From contig NZ_CP056123.1 in assembly GCF_018219155.1 (NCBI RefSeq), positions 2,179,505 to 2,243,504 of the forward strand: a stretch of 64,000 nt of DNA, written 5' to 3'. Position 1 is the first letter of the stretch. Each line of letters starts with the position of its first letter. The notes beneath the pieces were generated by a model, which was not told the DNA's origin, ran no database searches, and was given only the letters and a program-made list of their open reading frames with translations. A program made the translations under genes and the position numbers. The DNA comes from Moritella sp. 24 (GTDB lineage: Bacteria; Pseudomonadota; Gammaproteobacteria; Enterobacterales; Moritellaceae). Positions 30,674 to 62,879 of this stretch are shown one piece after another.

Positions 30674-30741
30674 CACTTTCATGGGACAACAATTAATACT
30701 GTATATATACACAGTGTTAATTGTTGTCCCATAAAGTGGCT
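30674..30741. repeat. Long palindrome with CTG-N10-CAG centre (copy A)
   Basis: Arms of about 28 bases pair with a single one-base bulge and one wobble; the outer part CACTTTCATGGGACAACAA meets TTGTTGTCCCATAAAGTG. The centre CTGTATATATACACAG (30699-30714) has the spacing of a LexA box. Similar centres occur at 41091-41106 and 61898-61913, each after an AGTCTC motif. No gene begins next to it. Confidence 0.75.
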
Positions 30742-30878
30742 GCTTTATCTCGATTTTAGTCCTTTACGTACTGTTCGTGGCTATTTTAGCTAAATAAGGT
30801 GCCGTTCATTATTCTAAATAGCTCTGTATATCGTTGATTTCACTGATTAAAAGCCAGGTTTATTGCTGTTTACATGTT

Positions 30879-30895
30879 CGCTGTGTAAAATCTGA
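30879..30895 (+). repeat. Dispersed 16-mer, single copy S1
   Basis: CGCTGTGTAAAATCTG here is repeated exactly at 62529-62544 and resembles CGCTACGTAAAATATG at 33069-33084, on the other side of the recombinase in the same orientation. Could be a degenerate recombination site. Confidence 0.6.
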
Positions 30896-30947
30896 TTAAC
30901 TTTGGCTGTTGTCATCCGTAAATTTTAAAAAACGGCCCTGTAAATAA

Positions 30948-31190
30948 GTTATACGAAGTAAAGAGGTTGTATCTACTTGGTGCACTTTAAGTGATTATTT
31001 ATTTTAATTTAAAATATTAATTAAGGTTAACCTATAGATTCACCATTTAGTTTAATTAAATTCATAATTGATCTTCAGGTTGTGTTTTATGTTTAATTGA
31101 AAGTGGTTCCTTTTGTGAATTTAAATGTGCTGTAAATAAGTTCACTAGAAGTATCTTTATTTCGTATAATGACCGTTAAACGAAATAAAG
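30948..31190. repeat. Three copies of RTTAWACGAARTAAAG
   Basis: GTTATACGAAGTAAAG lies at 30948-30963, ATTATACGAAATAAAG on the minus strand at 31155-31170, and GTTAAACGAAATAAAG at 31175-31190. The last two form an inverted pair (CTTTATTTCGT/ACGAAATAAAG, 14-base spacer). They lie 240-480 bases ahead of the ribbon-helix-helix gene and could be binding sites for that protein or for the recombinase. Confidence 0.6.
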
Positions 31191-31428: not shown

Positions 31429-31824
31429 ATGAAGATTAAACCAGACGCGACTCGAAAAAATAGTACGATTAGAATGTACGAAGACTTACTCGAAAAATTA
31501 GAAACCATCAGTGAGCAATGTAATGTTTCTAAGAGTCAGTTTGTTGAAGGTATGCTGGCAGATGTTTTTGAAAATGGAATGAATGATTTGTTATTAGGGA
31601 CGGGGATAATTACCGTGCATCTCAGTAACAAGATAACAAAGAAGCATGCGGAAAATGTATTACTTAAACACTATCCTAAAATAAAAAGTACACTTTATGT
31701 GGAGACTGATAATGATGACACAGAAATTACAGTTAACTTAAATGGTAATGAGTTTAGTCACGATGATACCACTTGTATGTTTCATGATACGTTAAGTGAA
31801 ATGGTAAACTTTATTGACGGATAA
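31429..31824 (+). CDS. Ribbon-helix-helix (CopG/Arc-like) DNA-binding protein, tentative
   Basis: A 131 aa protein. Residues about 12-50 (NSTIRMYEDLLEKLETISEQ, then CNVSKSQFVEGMLADVF) look like a ribbon-helix-helix fold: a strand STIRM, a helix, a Ser-Lys-SQF turn and a second helix. The C-terminal 80 residues, acidic and with ITVNLNGNEF, match nothing I know. The ATG at 31429 follows GTGGA; a GTG at 31417 is in frame. It is convergent with the tyrosine recombinase and separated by a hairpin, so it may regulate that element. It is not recognised beyond this. Confidence 0.6.
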   Translation: MKIKPDATRKNSTIRMYEDLLEKLETISEQCNVSKSQFVEGMLADVFENGMNDLLLGTGIITVHLSNKITKKHAENVLLKHYPKIKSTLYVETDNDDTEITVNLNGNEFSHDDTTCMFHDTLSEMVNFIDG

Positions 31825-31884: not shown

Positions 31885-32970
31885 TTACTCTCCAGCCATT
31901 GTTTCTAATCGTTCTCTTAATTCTCTCACTGTTGCAAACTTATTATTTACACCACGAGTGTAGAGTTCAACCATGCGTAATGTTTTCCATCGCCCAGCTC
32001 GCATGACCAAAGAGTCATCAAACCCTGCACTGACAAGATCACATGAAGCACCAACTCGAGCGGAATGTCCGCTAAAAGGTCTAACTGGTAAATCGATAGT
32101 CAAATCAAATTCAACCGATTGATTGTATTCATTGATCATATGCCAGGTATTGGCAAATACAAGCTCAACAGTTTTTGTTGAAATCGGTTTATCGTGAGGG
32201 TTGGGTGAAAGTGAACTTGGTTTTAGCTTTTCTAACTTACCACCACGTGGTGTTGTTCTTTTAAACAAATACTGACCTTGATGTTCAGCTGTTTTTTGTA
32301 GGTAAATCGGCAATAGTTTTGATGTGAATTTACTGAGGTGAACAATCGAGCCATCCAATGATTTATCGGTTTTTGTATTGGTGATATTTACAGTATAAAG
32401 ACCGTTAGAGCGATGTAATTGATCCATGAATAGATTACAGGCTTCACTTTCACGAAGTAATCCATCGTAACAAACATTTAATAACAGGGTGTTACGAATA
32501 GAGATTAATGATGTCGTATCAAGCTGATCGTTCACAAATTTCAAATGCTCATAAGTAAAAGCAACAGCTTGCTTGCGCTTAATACCTAGTTTAACTTCTT
32601 GTTTTGAAATGATTTTTAATCTAGCTGTAATCACAGTCTTGAAATAGGGGATCTCTAGTCCGGCCAAAGCGTGAACTTTGGATACGGCCCATGCGTAAAT
32701 ACGAAGTGTTTGAGCTTTACAGCCTCGCTCATTTTCCTTTATTAGAAACGCTTCAAGTACCATTGCATCTTGTAAAGGTAAGGGAATGATATTAAGACTT
32801 AGACAATATTCATTGAATTTATTCACATGAAAATGGAGTGATTTAAGCGTGTTCTCTTCTAGCTGTTCTTTACGATCACTAAACCTAATTAGGTTTTCGA
32901 TGTGCTCTTCACTAAGATTCGAAGATGGAATTATTGAGTTATTACCTATATTTATCAATGCTTTAGGCAT
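31885..32970 (-). CDS. Orphan tyrosine recombinase (site-specific integrase)
   Basis: A 361 aa tyrosine recombinase. The N-terminal SAM-like core-binding domain (residues about 25-130) is followed by the catalytic domain with the Arg in GLLRESEACNL near 195, HSARVGA (His-x-x-Arg box) near 310, the GRWKT box near 331 and the nucleophile Tyr in MVELYTRG near 343. All catalytic residues appear intact. It is not a phage-type integrase cassette: no excisionase, phage or conjugation genes adjoin it. Paired inverted sites lie about 95-160 bases upstream of its start, and related sites occur near 62 kb. Confidence 0.88.
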   Translation of the reverse strand: MPKALINIGNNSIIPSSNLSEEHIENLIRFSDRKEQLEENTLKSLHFHVNKFNEYCLSLNIIPLPLQDAMVLEAFLIKENERGCKAQTLRIYAWAVSKVHALAGLEIPYFKTVITARLKIISKQEVKLGIKRKQAVAFTYEHLKFVNDQLDTTSLISIRNTLLLNVCYDGLLRESEACNLFMDQLHRSNGLYTVNITNTKTDKSLDGSIVHLSKFTSKLLPIYLQKTAEHQGQYLFKRTTPRGGKLEKLKPSSLSPNPHDKPISTKTVELVFANTWHMINEYNQSVEFDLTIDLPVRPFSGHSARVGASCDLVSAGFDDSLVMRAGRWKTLRMVELYTRGVNNKFATVRELRERLETMAGE

Positions 32971-33063
32971 TTTAATCCCATTTGGTTGCTTAATCTAAAA
33001 TATTAACGGAGCAATTATAACATCTACAACTGTATAAGCAACCAGTGAAAAAGGTCTTTATTT

Positions 33064-33131
33064 TCGTGCGCTACGTAAAATATGAAGTCATGGTGGCTAA
33101 CCTAACTCGTAGATTTCACGTAGGAACGCAT
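33064..33131. repeat. Inverted-repeat site upstream of the recombinase (S4/S5)
   Basis: Left arm TCGTGCGCTACGTAAAAT (33064-33081) and right arm AGATTTCACGTAGGAACGCA (33111-33130) are imperfect inverted copies around a spacer of about 29 bases. The left arm recurs with 18 of 18 bases at 62573-62590 on the opposite strand, where it is again part of an inverted pair. This whole 345-base gap (32971-33315) has no other ORF; it also carries the promoter and operator of the tetR gene. Confidence 0.7.
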
Positions 33132-56868: not shown

Positions 56869-57268
56869 CCTTTATAATCGCTTGAACTCGTATTTAAACT
56901 GCAAGCATTCCTTTAAAAACAGACTCATTGTAATCGACTGCTAAAAACTATTGGTAAGCAGTATAGTGCGACAAATAATCGCACTCACAACAGCTTGCTT
57001 ACAATAGTTAGAGTTGAAATGATAACAGCTCTAACTAAATCATTCAATTACACTGTATTTACTGCTTTTATGGGAGGCTACGGTGGGATTATTATCCCCT
57101 TAAATGTTAGAACACTAATTAATTAGGGTAGGGTACTTGTATCAAACCTGCTATATATGGGGCATATTTATAGCGATTTTGTGACTATGGAGGCTGTTTA
57201 CGGTAATCTCAGGAATGTAATTGCTAGCCTTAGCTATGCTTGGTAATACTATATTGAATTACTAAGCA
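56869..57268. other. Intergenic region between the glnD-like and tetR genes (400 bases)
   Basis: No ORF with a ribosome binding site. It holds the glnD-like promoter, a small inverted repeat TGCGA/TCGCA around 56967-56983, and the 3' end of the nemR-like transcript. No terminator is obvious. Confidence 0.5.
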
Positions 57269-61200: not shown

Positions 61201-61452
61201 ATGCGTATAGTTTCTTTTACTGAAGCCCGAAATGGCCTTAAATCTGTTCTTGATGGCGTGGTTAATGATGCTGACTGCACTGTTATCACTCGTCGAGATT
61301 CTGAAGATGCTGTAGTAATGTCTATGGACTATTACAATAGTTTAATGGAAACGATCTATTTATCTCGTTCTCCAGCTAATGCTGCGCATCTAAATAAATC
61401 AATCGCTCAATACAATGCTGGTCAAACGACAGAAAGAGGCTTGCTTGAATGA
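61201..61452 (+). CDS. yefM: Antitoxin YefM (Phd/YefM family)
   Basis: An 83 aa antitoxin that binds and neutralises YoeB and represses its own operon. The N-terminal Phd/YefM DNA-binding fold is plain: MRIVSFTEARNGLKSVLDGV, DADCTVITRRDSEDAVVMS, then the linker MDYYNSLMETIYL and a C-terminal toxin-binding tail. AGAGG precedes the ATG. The stop overlaps the toxin start by four bases (ATGA). A TGTACA palindrome lies upstream. Confidence 0.95.
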   Translation: MRIVSFTEARNGLKSVLDGVVNDADCTVITRRDSEDAVVMSMDYYNSLMETIYLSRSPANAAHLNKSIAQYNAGQTTERGLLE

Positions 61453-61709
61453 GCCGAATGTTAGCTTGGACTGACGAAGCATGGAGTGATTACTTGTATT
61501 GGCAGGGTCAAGACAAGAAAACACTTAAACGAATTAATAGGTTAATCACAGATACTAAGCGTTCGGCATTCGAAGGGATTGGCAAACCTGAGCCTTTGAA
61601 AGAAAATCTAGCTGGTTTTTGGTCACGTAGAATCGACGATACCAATAGGTTAGTTTATGCTGTTAATGACACACATTTAACGATTATTTCTTGTCGTTAT
61701 CACTATTAA
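61449..61709 (+). CDS. yoeB: Toxin YoeB, ribosome-dependent mRNA interferase
   Basis: An 86 aa RNase of the RelE/YoeB superfamily that cuts mRNA in the ribosomal A site. It matches YoeB closely: AWTDEAWSDYLYWQGQDKKT, INRLITDTKRSAFEGIGKPE, PLKENLAGFWSRRIDDTNRL and a C-terminal ISCRYHY with the catalytic Tyr/His end (RxHY). Glu near 47, Arg near 66 and His near 85 occupy the catalytic positions. Translationally coupled to yefM. The module probably forms a stable, self-maintaining locus in a repeat-rich zone. Confidence 0.95.
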   Translation: MSRMLAWTDEAWSDYLYWQGQDKKTLKRINRLITDTKRSAFEGIGKPEPLKENLAGFWSRRIDDTNRLVYAVNDTHLTIISCRYHY

Positions 61710-61954: not shown

Positions 61955-61996
61955 ATTGATAGTTAACTCAATTAAAACTTCATTTTTATGTGATGA

Positions 61997-62049
61997 TACG
62001 TGAAATCTGAGTTCGTAATCAGAATAACTAGCTCGTTTATTTTGCGTAG
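61997..62049. repeat. Inverted-repeat site S6/S7
   Basis: TACGTGAAATCTG (61997-62009) and ATTTTGCGTAG (62039-62049) are imperfect inverted copies of the same element seen upstream of the recombinase, with a spacer of about 29 bases. Confidence 0.55.
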
Positions 62050-62526
62050 GATCGATTCAGGTTAACTAAAGATATATTTAATGTGGTGTTTGGTTTAGTC
62101 ACTGCAATAAATTATCTGCGAATTTAATTCATCAATAAGTAACAAATCTATTTTAGTTTTGATTGATTGGCCAATATGAAATTGAATATGAGTCCGATGT
62201 TAATTGAAGCCAATCAAGCATATCAAGTAGGATCATATCGAATAGCCAGTTCAGTTTAGGTTAAGTTGAGTGCTGTAAATGAAAATTAATAGAGTGAGTT
62301 TTCTTAATTTAAAATGATAAGTTCGTGATTTAAATCTTTGTGTAAACAATGGTGCATCCACATGACACGGAAAGCTAACTCAGATTCAATGTAATGACCG
62401 TTGAAAAAATATAATTGTAATCCTGATAGATATTTATTTGGGCCATGTAAAAATACAGGCATGATTAAAATAGCTGAATAATAAAAATAAGATAAAGCTT
62501 TAGTTATTAAAGGACTAAAGATGACA

Positions 62527-62591
62527 CGCGCTGTGTAAAATCTGCGGTAACAATACTGGTAAAACTTTTCAGATTTTACGTAGCGCACGAG
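62527..62591. repeat. Inverted-repeat site S2/S3
   Basis: CGCGCTGTGTAAAATCTG (62527-62544) and CAGATTTTACGTAGCGCACG (62570-62589) are inverted copies with a 25-base spacer. The left arm core equals the 16-mer at 30879; the right arm is an exact inverted copy (18 bases) of the left arm at 33064. Confidence 0.75.
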
Positions 62592-62843
62592 TTTTTGATA
62601 GTAAGTTGAAGCATCAGTGACTAGATTTTGATATTAATGCTGATAATTTCAACCCAGACGCTTCTATCTGGGTTTATACAACACTGCGCATAATGTATAT
62701 TATGTTAAATAGAGTTTGTAGTAAGTATATATTGGAGTCCCTATTCTAATGAACGATCATATAATGATGGAGATTGTTGGCTTGGATGTTGTCAATTTAA
62801 CACATGGGTTATTTACCATAAAGTATATGATATGCATCTAAAT

Positions 62844-62879
62844 GATTACATCATATTTTATCCAAAATATGATGTAATC
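62844..62879. repeat. Perfect 16-bp palindrome
   Basis: GATTACATCATATTTT and AAAATATGATGTAATC with a 4-base loop (ATCC). No gene ends or begins next to it apart from a 30-codon frame ending at 62841. Confidence 0.7.

Follow-up and report, generated by a model that had tools for sequence, protein, structure and literature searches.

Cre/loxP of phage P1 and the terminus-linked Xer systems are the described systems closest to the locus reported here. In P1, loxP lies opposite the origin, and Cre/loxP can replace dif in an FtsK-dependent manner (PMC11724359); in E. coli, Cre/loxP suppresses the dif-minus phenotype only with loxP at the terminus (PMC2731167). XerS/difSL and XerH/difH each link one tyrosine recombinase to its own terminus site and are described as alternatives to XerCD/dif (PMC2731167, PMC5357621). 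A 2009 survey stated that evidence for Cre/lox-like resolvases in dif/Xer-deficient proteobacteria was lacking (PMC2731167), a 2017 review raises the question whether another system takes over the role of dif/Xer (PMC5357621), and PMC2409434 leaves room for regulatory DNA beyond loxP. Here we describe a locus in Moritella sp. 24 (genome G000, 4.73 Mb in 3 contigs) that carries a gene for a predicted Cre-family tyrosine recombinase, a lox-like site, and copies of an inverted unit that we call the two-arm element. It lies in a stretch of 64,000 nucleotides, positions 2,179,505 to 2,243,504 of contig NZ_CP056123.1 (G000:C1:2179505-2243504), which we refer to as the window and whose coordinates are used below. 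The whole analysis was comparative, and the genus comparison comprised 11 Moritella genomes including G000.

The recombinase gene (31885..32970, minus strand) encodes a 361-aa protein (P0001) with a Pfam Phage_integrase match at 5.5e-17. All 17 PDB sequences matched by phmmer at E<=0.1 were Cre or its engineered derivative Tre, and the best match (5e-21) covered residues 12-348 of the recombinase, the homology running along both domains. Residues R173, K200, H302, R305, W328 and Y337 were invariant in 11/11 Moritella recombinases; placed via the PDB alignment, they presumably have the catalytic roles of their counterparts in Cre. The protein was 26% identical to P1 Cre and 32% identical to the recombinase of plasmid p0908, the closest named recombinase compared, VCre (with its site VloxP). 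The XerC and XerD equivalog models gave it no more than 27.2 bits, far below their cut-offs of 220-371. We concluded from this homology that the recombinase is of the Cre family, a likeness that the first-pass annotation of the window had overlooked, together with the lox-like site and dif. Its remark that no phage or conjugation genes adjoin the recombinase held among the open reading frames (ORFs) compared or searched.

The recombinase was single copy in 11/11 genus genomes, the ten relatives being 83-91% identical to it, and the same search of 88 genomes from other families gave distant matches only, in 14 of them (E 0.001 or better). Named loci with an 84-91% identical recombinase came from Moritella sp. 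JT01, Moritella sp. PE36, M. dasanensis and a Moritella metagenome-assembled genome. The median ratio of nonsynonymous to synonymous change (dN/dS) was 0.049 (53/55 pairs unsaturated) versus 0.073 for the neighbouring adenosine deaminase gene, and the recombinase is thus under strong purifying selection. Synonymous distances of the recombinase and of this adjacent core gene were correlated (r 0.82), as expected if both were inherited vertically.

We scanned for inverted 13-bp arms with a 6-9 bp spacer and compared the results between genomes; a single intergenic candidate proved conserved in sequence in all 11, the 34-bp lox-like site TTTATTTCGTATA-ATGACCGT-TAAACGAAATAAA (31156..31189, plus strand), which has 13-8-13 geometry and, in G000, arms inverted at 12/13 positions. 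As a positive control, the 13-8-13 scan also recovered the lox-like palindrome upstream of VCre on p0908. The site was single copy in 11/11 genomes (at <=3 mismatches in 22 fixed positions, reverse-strand matches being the same palindrome). Seven of the 11 genomes were identical at 34/34 bases and the remaining four had 1-2 differences, so the site forms a conserved island within diverged flanking intergenic DNA. Its arms matched those of P1 loxP (record X03453) at 10/13 and 9/13 positions; for a random 13-mer, the probability of 10 is 0.0007. Outside the genus, 9 of 186 order genomes matched the site at 2-3 mismatches, and these matches look like chance. Because each genome has a single lox, the site can pair with its sister copy alone, as dimer resolution requires. 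We rejected a second lox near dif: ATGACCGT recurs at ~62394, at that place in G000 only, and was taken as chance.

The locus resembles P1 Cre/loxP in its homologous recombinase, its 13-8-13 site with a 10/13 arm, the nearness of site and gene, and, as described below, a two-arm element between lox and cre. In contrast, P1 is a plasmid-prophage with the order loxP-cra-cre, whereas the Moritella locus is chromosomal, single copy and part of the genus core, and has a ribbon-helix-helix (RHH) gene between lox and the convergent cre. VCre/VloxP is alike in recombinase sequence, and on p0908 the lox lies upstream of the gene; it differs in being plasmid-borne, with no two-arm element found within 3 kb.

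Position relative to the terminus was assessed from dif and from GC skew (20-kb samples, 10 each in G000 and G010). The dif site ACTGCGCATAATGTATATTATGTTAAAT, the XerCD target (62683..62710, plus strand), has 2 mismatches to the E. coli dif sequence, and one copy was present in each of 10/11 genus genomes. Skew in G000 was positive to the left of the locus, had fallen almost to zero at 2.26 Mb and was negative at 2.40 Mb and beyond, with dif at 2.242 Mb; in G010 it turned between 2.47 and 2.60 Mb, with lox at 2.519 Mb. The distance from lox to dif was 23.2-55.7 kb in the 8 genomes with both on one contig, and in G005 and G006 the two were on separate contigs. We concluded that the recombinase/lox locus sits in the replication terminus region. 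The only motifs of the window that resemble KOPS (FtsK-orienting polar sequences), at 57126(+) and 63746(-), converge on dif, not on lox. The locus is therefore like XerCD/dif in terminus position and presumed function but differs from it in recombinase branch, in having a single enzyme and a different site, and in that the KOPS-like motifs of G000 converge on dif. With XerS/difSL and XerH/difH it shares the link of one tyrosine recombinase to its own terminus site; those systems are described as XerCD/dif alternatives, whereas Moritella keeps dif in 10/11 genomes.

The remaining genome, G010 (3 contigs), had no dif at <=3 mismatches. In place of dif, G010 has an insertion sequence and lacks ~160 bp (G010:C1:2571163-2573002); it retains two pseudo-dif sites, whose centre is 11 bp long. 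Two Xer-like frames, of 299 and ~324-337 aa, were taken as XerD and XerC because they were found in all 11 genomes, and both are open in G010 (299 and 330 aa). G010 also retains the Cre gene and lox, and the loss of dif with Cre/lox kept fits a replacement.

The first-pass annotation had pointed to an 18-base arm upstream of the recombinase that recurs in inverted orientation 29 kb away, each copy being half of an inverted pair, and to a looser third pair and a lone related 16-mer. We found TCGTGCGCTACGTAAAAT exactly at 33064-33081 (+) and 62573-62590 (-); these were its only window matches at <=3 mismatches (chance mean 0.08), and 1/100 shuffles gave two or more. CGCTGTGTAAAATCTG was exact at both 30879 and 62529, but the copy at 30879 is not a lone one, being the strong arm of a degenerate pair, Q. 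Both 18-mers do lie in inverted pairs, although the unit had to be corrected to two 17-bp inverted arms set 43 bp start to start (~4 helical turns), with ~25 bp between the arms. Across the 11 genomes, 27 aligned sites showed one architecture, with a spacer that differed by site type (P, C, D, E).

A covariance model of the element, R1, was built from these 27 sites, and the R1 E-values of those sites, including P, C and D of the window, are by construction. Element P (33066..33129, minus strand; 58.8 bits, E 5e-13) lies directly upstream of the recombinase promoter region. The looser third pair was real and corresponds to element C (61991..62055, minus strand; E 9.5e-11), which is homologous to P. 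Element D (62525..62588, plus strand; 69.3 bits, E 4e-16) lies ~96 bp from dif, and the motif copy that had seemed remote from the recombinase is remote because it is located ~100 bp from dif. D ended 95-108 bp from dif in nine genomes; in G003 dif was present and D was not found, and in G010 D was present without dif. Degenerate Q (30876..30935, minus strand; R1 E 0.3) lies left of the lox-like site, and an arm-like stretch aligned at the same place in other genomes, within 2 mismatches in G003, G005 and G008.

Whole-genome R1 searches scored only the top candidates of an initial screen (150 for each genus genome, 53 for each genome of the order sample), and absences are accordingly soft. Over the 11 genus genomes, every match at E<1e-4, the 27 model sites among them, lay between the recombinase and dif. 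The best match outside that segment was G010:C1:1008778 (1.8e-4); weaker ones were those in G009 (0.004) and G007 (0.85), both ~1 kb past dif, and one on a 19-kb G000 contig (0.013), with a few further matches elsewhere in the genus at E 0.04-0.95. The earlier statements that the motif is linked to the recombinase and lacks likeness to attC or attI were borne out. Spacers of P and E in G010 were about one helical turn shorter, suggesting proteins bound on one face of the helix. A hairpin in single-stranded DNA or RNA was rejected as the basis of the arms: pair counts were barely above shuffles (10-206 of 500 reached the observed value, depending on the measure), and protein-binding arms are therefore preferred.

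Beyond the genus, R1 at E 0.01 or better matched 6/6 Moritella and 11/93 other genomes in an even sample of 99 order genomes. In 9 of these 11 the match lay 127-689 bp from dif, centre to centre; the two exceptions were G015, where no dif was found, and G086, where the site was 1.0 Mb from dif. We then scanned 60 further dif regions from 16 other families, hand-picked before any scan among the matches listed (191/247 genomes with a match); they exclude nine genomes already fetched for R1 matches, which biases the count downward. The element was present in 12 of the 60 at E<0.02, 11 of these at <0.001, with 5/7 in family f6, 3/9 in f18, 2/4 in f11, 2/2 in f8 and 0/38 in the remaining families. 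Controls gave a best E of 0.18 over 300 kb and, on a plasmid, 0.022 over 256 kb (a set that excluded L058, which is the G039 locus with a known Cre, as well as L071 and L072). The first-pass annotation had held that its link between motif and recombinase would fall if the motif was a genome-wide repeat or was present equally in relatives without the recombinase; the motif is not genome-wide in Moritella, but it does stand beside dif in stretches of other families that lack the recombinase.

The element also accompanies cre. In P1 it begins 95 bp past loxP and precedes cra and cre (L271:3618-3681, E 1e-8). When viral contigs were scanned for the exact pattern, 8 carried it, of which 3 had cre near the site, two of these with a lox-like site; in the other five no cre was found near the site in the fetched stretch. 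G102 combines the element with a loxP-like site and a P1-like cre (42% identical). We concluded that the two-arm element is linked with dif as well as with cre/lox. A diverged copy (60-80% identity) was present in 1012 plasmid records, nearly all from Klebsiella (992 records). On one of these plasmids, the 238-kb NZ_CP082026.1, the element lies at ~131.2 kb, roughly opposite RepB genes at positions 1 and 22 kb; a role of the element at plasmid replication termini, which this one plasmid hints at, was set aside as there were too few cases for a claim.

A second genus, g29, combines similar parts. All six sampled g29 genomes had a Cre-like gene ~1 kb from dif (G039 was fetched for its two-arm match, and the other five came with the 60 dif regions), and the five further genes shared 60-71% identity with that of G039. 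A lox-like palindrome (12/13 or 13/13) lay just upstream of the Cre-like gene, 0.6-1.2 kb from dif. The G039 enzyme was 24.5% identical to the Moritella recombinase and the lox arms look unrelated, and for these reasons the g29 and Moritella systems are best seen as independent recruitments. The two other f6 genera among the 60 (G095, G182) had no such gene within 2.5 kb of dif, and G151 had a Cre-like gene near dif with no lox recognised. A general enrichment of lox-like palindromes near dif was rejected (2/18 within 400 bp versus ~3 expected) and is claimed for g29 only. Three f16 genomes (L229:6622, L234:5680, L327) had a perfect lox-like palindrome, ..ATGTCCAATA-CTTAAGAG-TATTGGACAT.., ~104-114 bp from dif, with no Cre gene in the fetched stretch; beyond g29, these three palindromes are a lead.

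In our judgement the Moritella locus is probably a resident chromosomal Cre/lox dimer-resolution module at the terminus, secondary to XerCD/dif. The Cre-like enzyme would recombine the single lox-like site between its two sister copies within a chromosome dimer and so restore monomers no later than division, and it would work beside XerCD/dif much as an artificial terminus loxP does in E. coli. That is, we infer that the enzyme acts on the lox-like site and that dimers are its substrate. The two-arm elements flanking recombinase/lox and dif are, on this proposal, putative accessory-protein sites at terminus and dimer-resolution loci, and the protein bound by the arms could regulate the recombinase gene, play an architectural part, or do both. 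The RHH protein is one candidate for arm binding, weakened by its absence from the searched stretches of other families. More tentatively, we suggest that at least two genera may have independently recruited distant Cre/lox pairs to the dif region as segregation modules, and that the two-arm element may be a hitherto undescribed accessory site common to XerCD/dif, Cre/lox and Xer-type cassettes, where a bound factor would direct recombination to sister replicons at the terminus.

Several observations weigh against a dimer-resolution module with an accessory element. Because dif is kept in 10/11 genomes, a Cre/lox system would be redundant in them, and since E. coli tolerates the loss of dif, G010 is no proof of replacement. 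The lox-like site lies up to 56 kb from dif, perhaps beyond the zone where dif works in E. coli. Other 12/13 palindromes occur in the same G000 stretch (a convergent-gene hairpin and a CTGT-N8-ACAG palindrome); geometry alone is therefore weak, and conservation and the loxP-like arm carry the argument for lox. The AlphaFold model of the recombinase was too poor for use (mean pLDDT 39), and synonymous sites of the g29 Cre-like genes were saturated among the six. As to the element, R1 did not find it in 48/60 of the dif regions scanned or in the dif region of E. coli K-12, nor was it found at three Vibrio/Shewanella plasmid Cre loci (for VCre of p0908, within 3 kb). Three Klebsiella plasmid loci had no Cre-like gene, dif or 12/13 lox-like palindrome (within ~3 kb on each side for two and ~1 kb for the third), so the element is not a strict mark of dimer resolution. 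In PMC2409434, PepA and ArgR are reported to have had no effect on a P1 loxP fragment whose stated limits include the two-arm element.

The first-pass annotation had favoured an integron-like or inversion system, in which the recombinase would act on two-arm sites P and D and invert or exchange the DNA between them, as in phase variation. P and D are indeed mutually inverted, with a common exact 18-mer, and the interval between them varies in content. A flip was seen in 0/11 genomes, however: the neighbours of P keep side and orientation (adenosine deaminase F2 in 11/11 genomes, F4 in the 10 having it), so that nothing points to a past inversion of the P-D interval. Cre-type enzymes use a crossover of 6-8 bp, which the gap of ~25 bp between the arms does not match, and a separate lox site exists whose single copy leaves no partner for inversion or cassette capture at lox. 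Stretches of other families that lack this enzyme also have two-arm sites next to dif. An integron would share the recombinase adjoining a structured site, but by family model the Moritella recombinase is not IntI: true IntI (TIGR02249 over cut-off) was found in 5/11 genus genomes, in none at the recombinase locus and not in G000. There is no attC, and P is followed by genes in a genus-wide shared order rather than by a cassette array. We regard this explanation as very improbable.

A second alternative is that Cre/lox is a fossil or guest from a P1-like plasmid-prophage or a plasmid, kept for a purpose other than chromosome dimers, for instance to resolve, capture or exclude incoming lox elements. 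The closest named Cre relatives found do reside on plasmids or phages, and the dif side of the terminus is a landing zone, with filamentous-phage satellites at dif in G004 and G010. We nevertheless consider a guest origin of this kind unlikely, given the single copy, constant neighbours and purifying selection in 11/11 genomes, the absence of any recognised phage or plasmid gene beside the recombinase, and the absence of a second lox at <=3 mismatches from all 11 genomes. It is somewhat less doubtful that the two-arm sites are operators of the RHH protein with a role in transcription only, placed at dif by dif-integrating filamentous phages that carry the operator. P abuts the recombinase promoter region, the RHH gene beside the sites is highly conserved, D ends the dif-integrated satellites of G004 and G010, and in most other genomes the left flank of D resembles the end of the satellites' last ORF. 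Against this, tblastn found no RHH relative in the fetched element-bearing stretches of other families, and the element adjoins dif in several families, at whose dif loci no search for phage remnants was made, and accompanies cre in P1-type phages.

A literature search covering few subscription journals found no report of a chromosomal Cre/lox at dif. The swap of dif for loxP in E. coli was artificial, and Moritella and g29 look like natural versions of it, with one genome lacking dif. If the dimer-resolution proposal is true, redundancy and replacement of chromosome dimer resolution would be testable in living lineages, and two Cre/lox specificities would be added for genome engineering. The proposal would also supply, in the two-arm element, a specific candidate for the cis-regulatory DNA around loxP that PMC2409434 leaves open.

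The RHH gene (31429..31824, plus strand) is convergent with the recombinase gene and encodes an Arc-like protein of 131 aa, with an RHH_3 match (1.1e-4) just over the cut-off and an Arc-like PHROG match at 6e-5. It was present in 11/11 genomes, 86-90% identical to the window copy, with a median dN/dS of 0.040. An RHH relative beside plasmid VCre was considered and rejected, the ORF there not being RHH-like. Between P and the recombinase start, the 11-genome alignment revealed a half-palindrome, CTGT-N8-CCAG (33030..33045, plus strand), that reads CTGT-N8-ACAG in 7/11 genomes; we call it LexA-like for its resemblance to the LexA consensus. Long palindromes centred on CTGTATATATACAG-like LexA-type boxes lie at 30689-30722, left of Q, and at ~61900, left of C, and the arms of the former covary between genomes. 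Also left of C (61201-61709) is a Phd/YefM antitoxin and YoeB toxin pair (Pfam 9e-21 and 1e-41); in G003, HipA and helix-turn-helix (HipB-like) genes are found close to C.

A 34-bp perfect palindrome with lox geometry, ATTACATCATATT-TTATCCAA-AATATGATGTAAT (62845..62878, no strand assigned), lies ~135 bp to the right of dif. Its 24-base core was found within 3 mismatches in 11/11 genomes, and its arms change in concert in some of them; in G010, a second, diverged copy flanks an insert of ~0.5 kb. Filamentous-phage satellites of 4.2 kb are integrated at dif (L108:4899-13406, L111:6954-11220) in G004, which has two in tandem, and in G010. Genes of the G004 copy, by Pfam and PHROGs, include a G2P-type replication protein, a G5P-type single-stranded-DNA-binding protein and a cI-like repressor, and each satellite ends with its own D element. 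Traits of integrative mobile elements exploiting Xer (dif insertion and phage genes) were thus seen in the G004 satellites and, by shared ORF clusters, in G010, and not at the recombinase locus, 23-56 kb away.

Lastly, a repeat unit of ~115 bp in direct orientation occurs on plasmid-sized contigs and chromosomes, its copies often 0.6-1.9 kb apart (L073:1442, 18979; L107:8395, 10000, 11539; L113:4044, 5174; L114:9750; L116:7243; L117:6458; L125:4915; L126:4458). In 11 of 12 aligned copies the end of the unit is a 28-bp Xer/dif-like core beside one arm of the two-arm motif, an example of the core being ACTGCGCATAA-CGCATG-TTATGTAAGAT, with changes. These units look like Xer cassettes of the pdif type.

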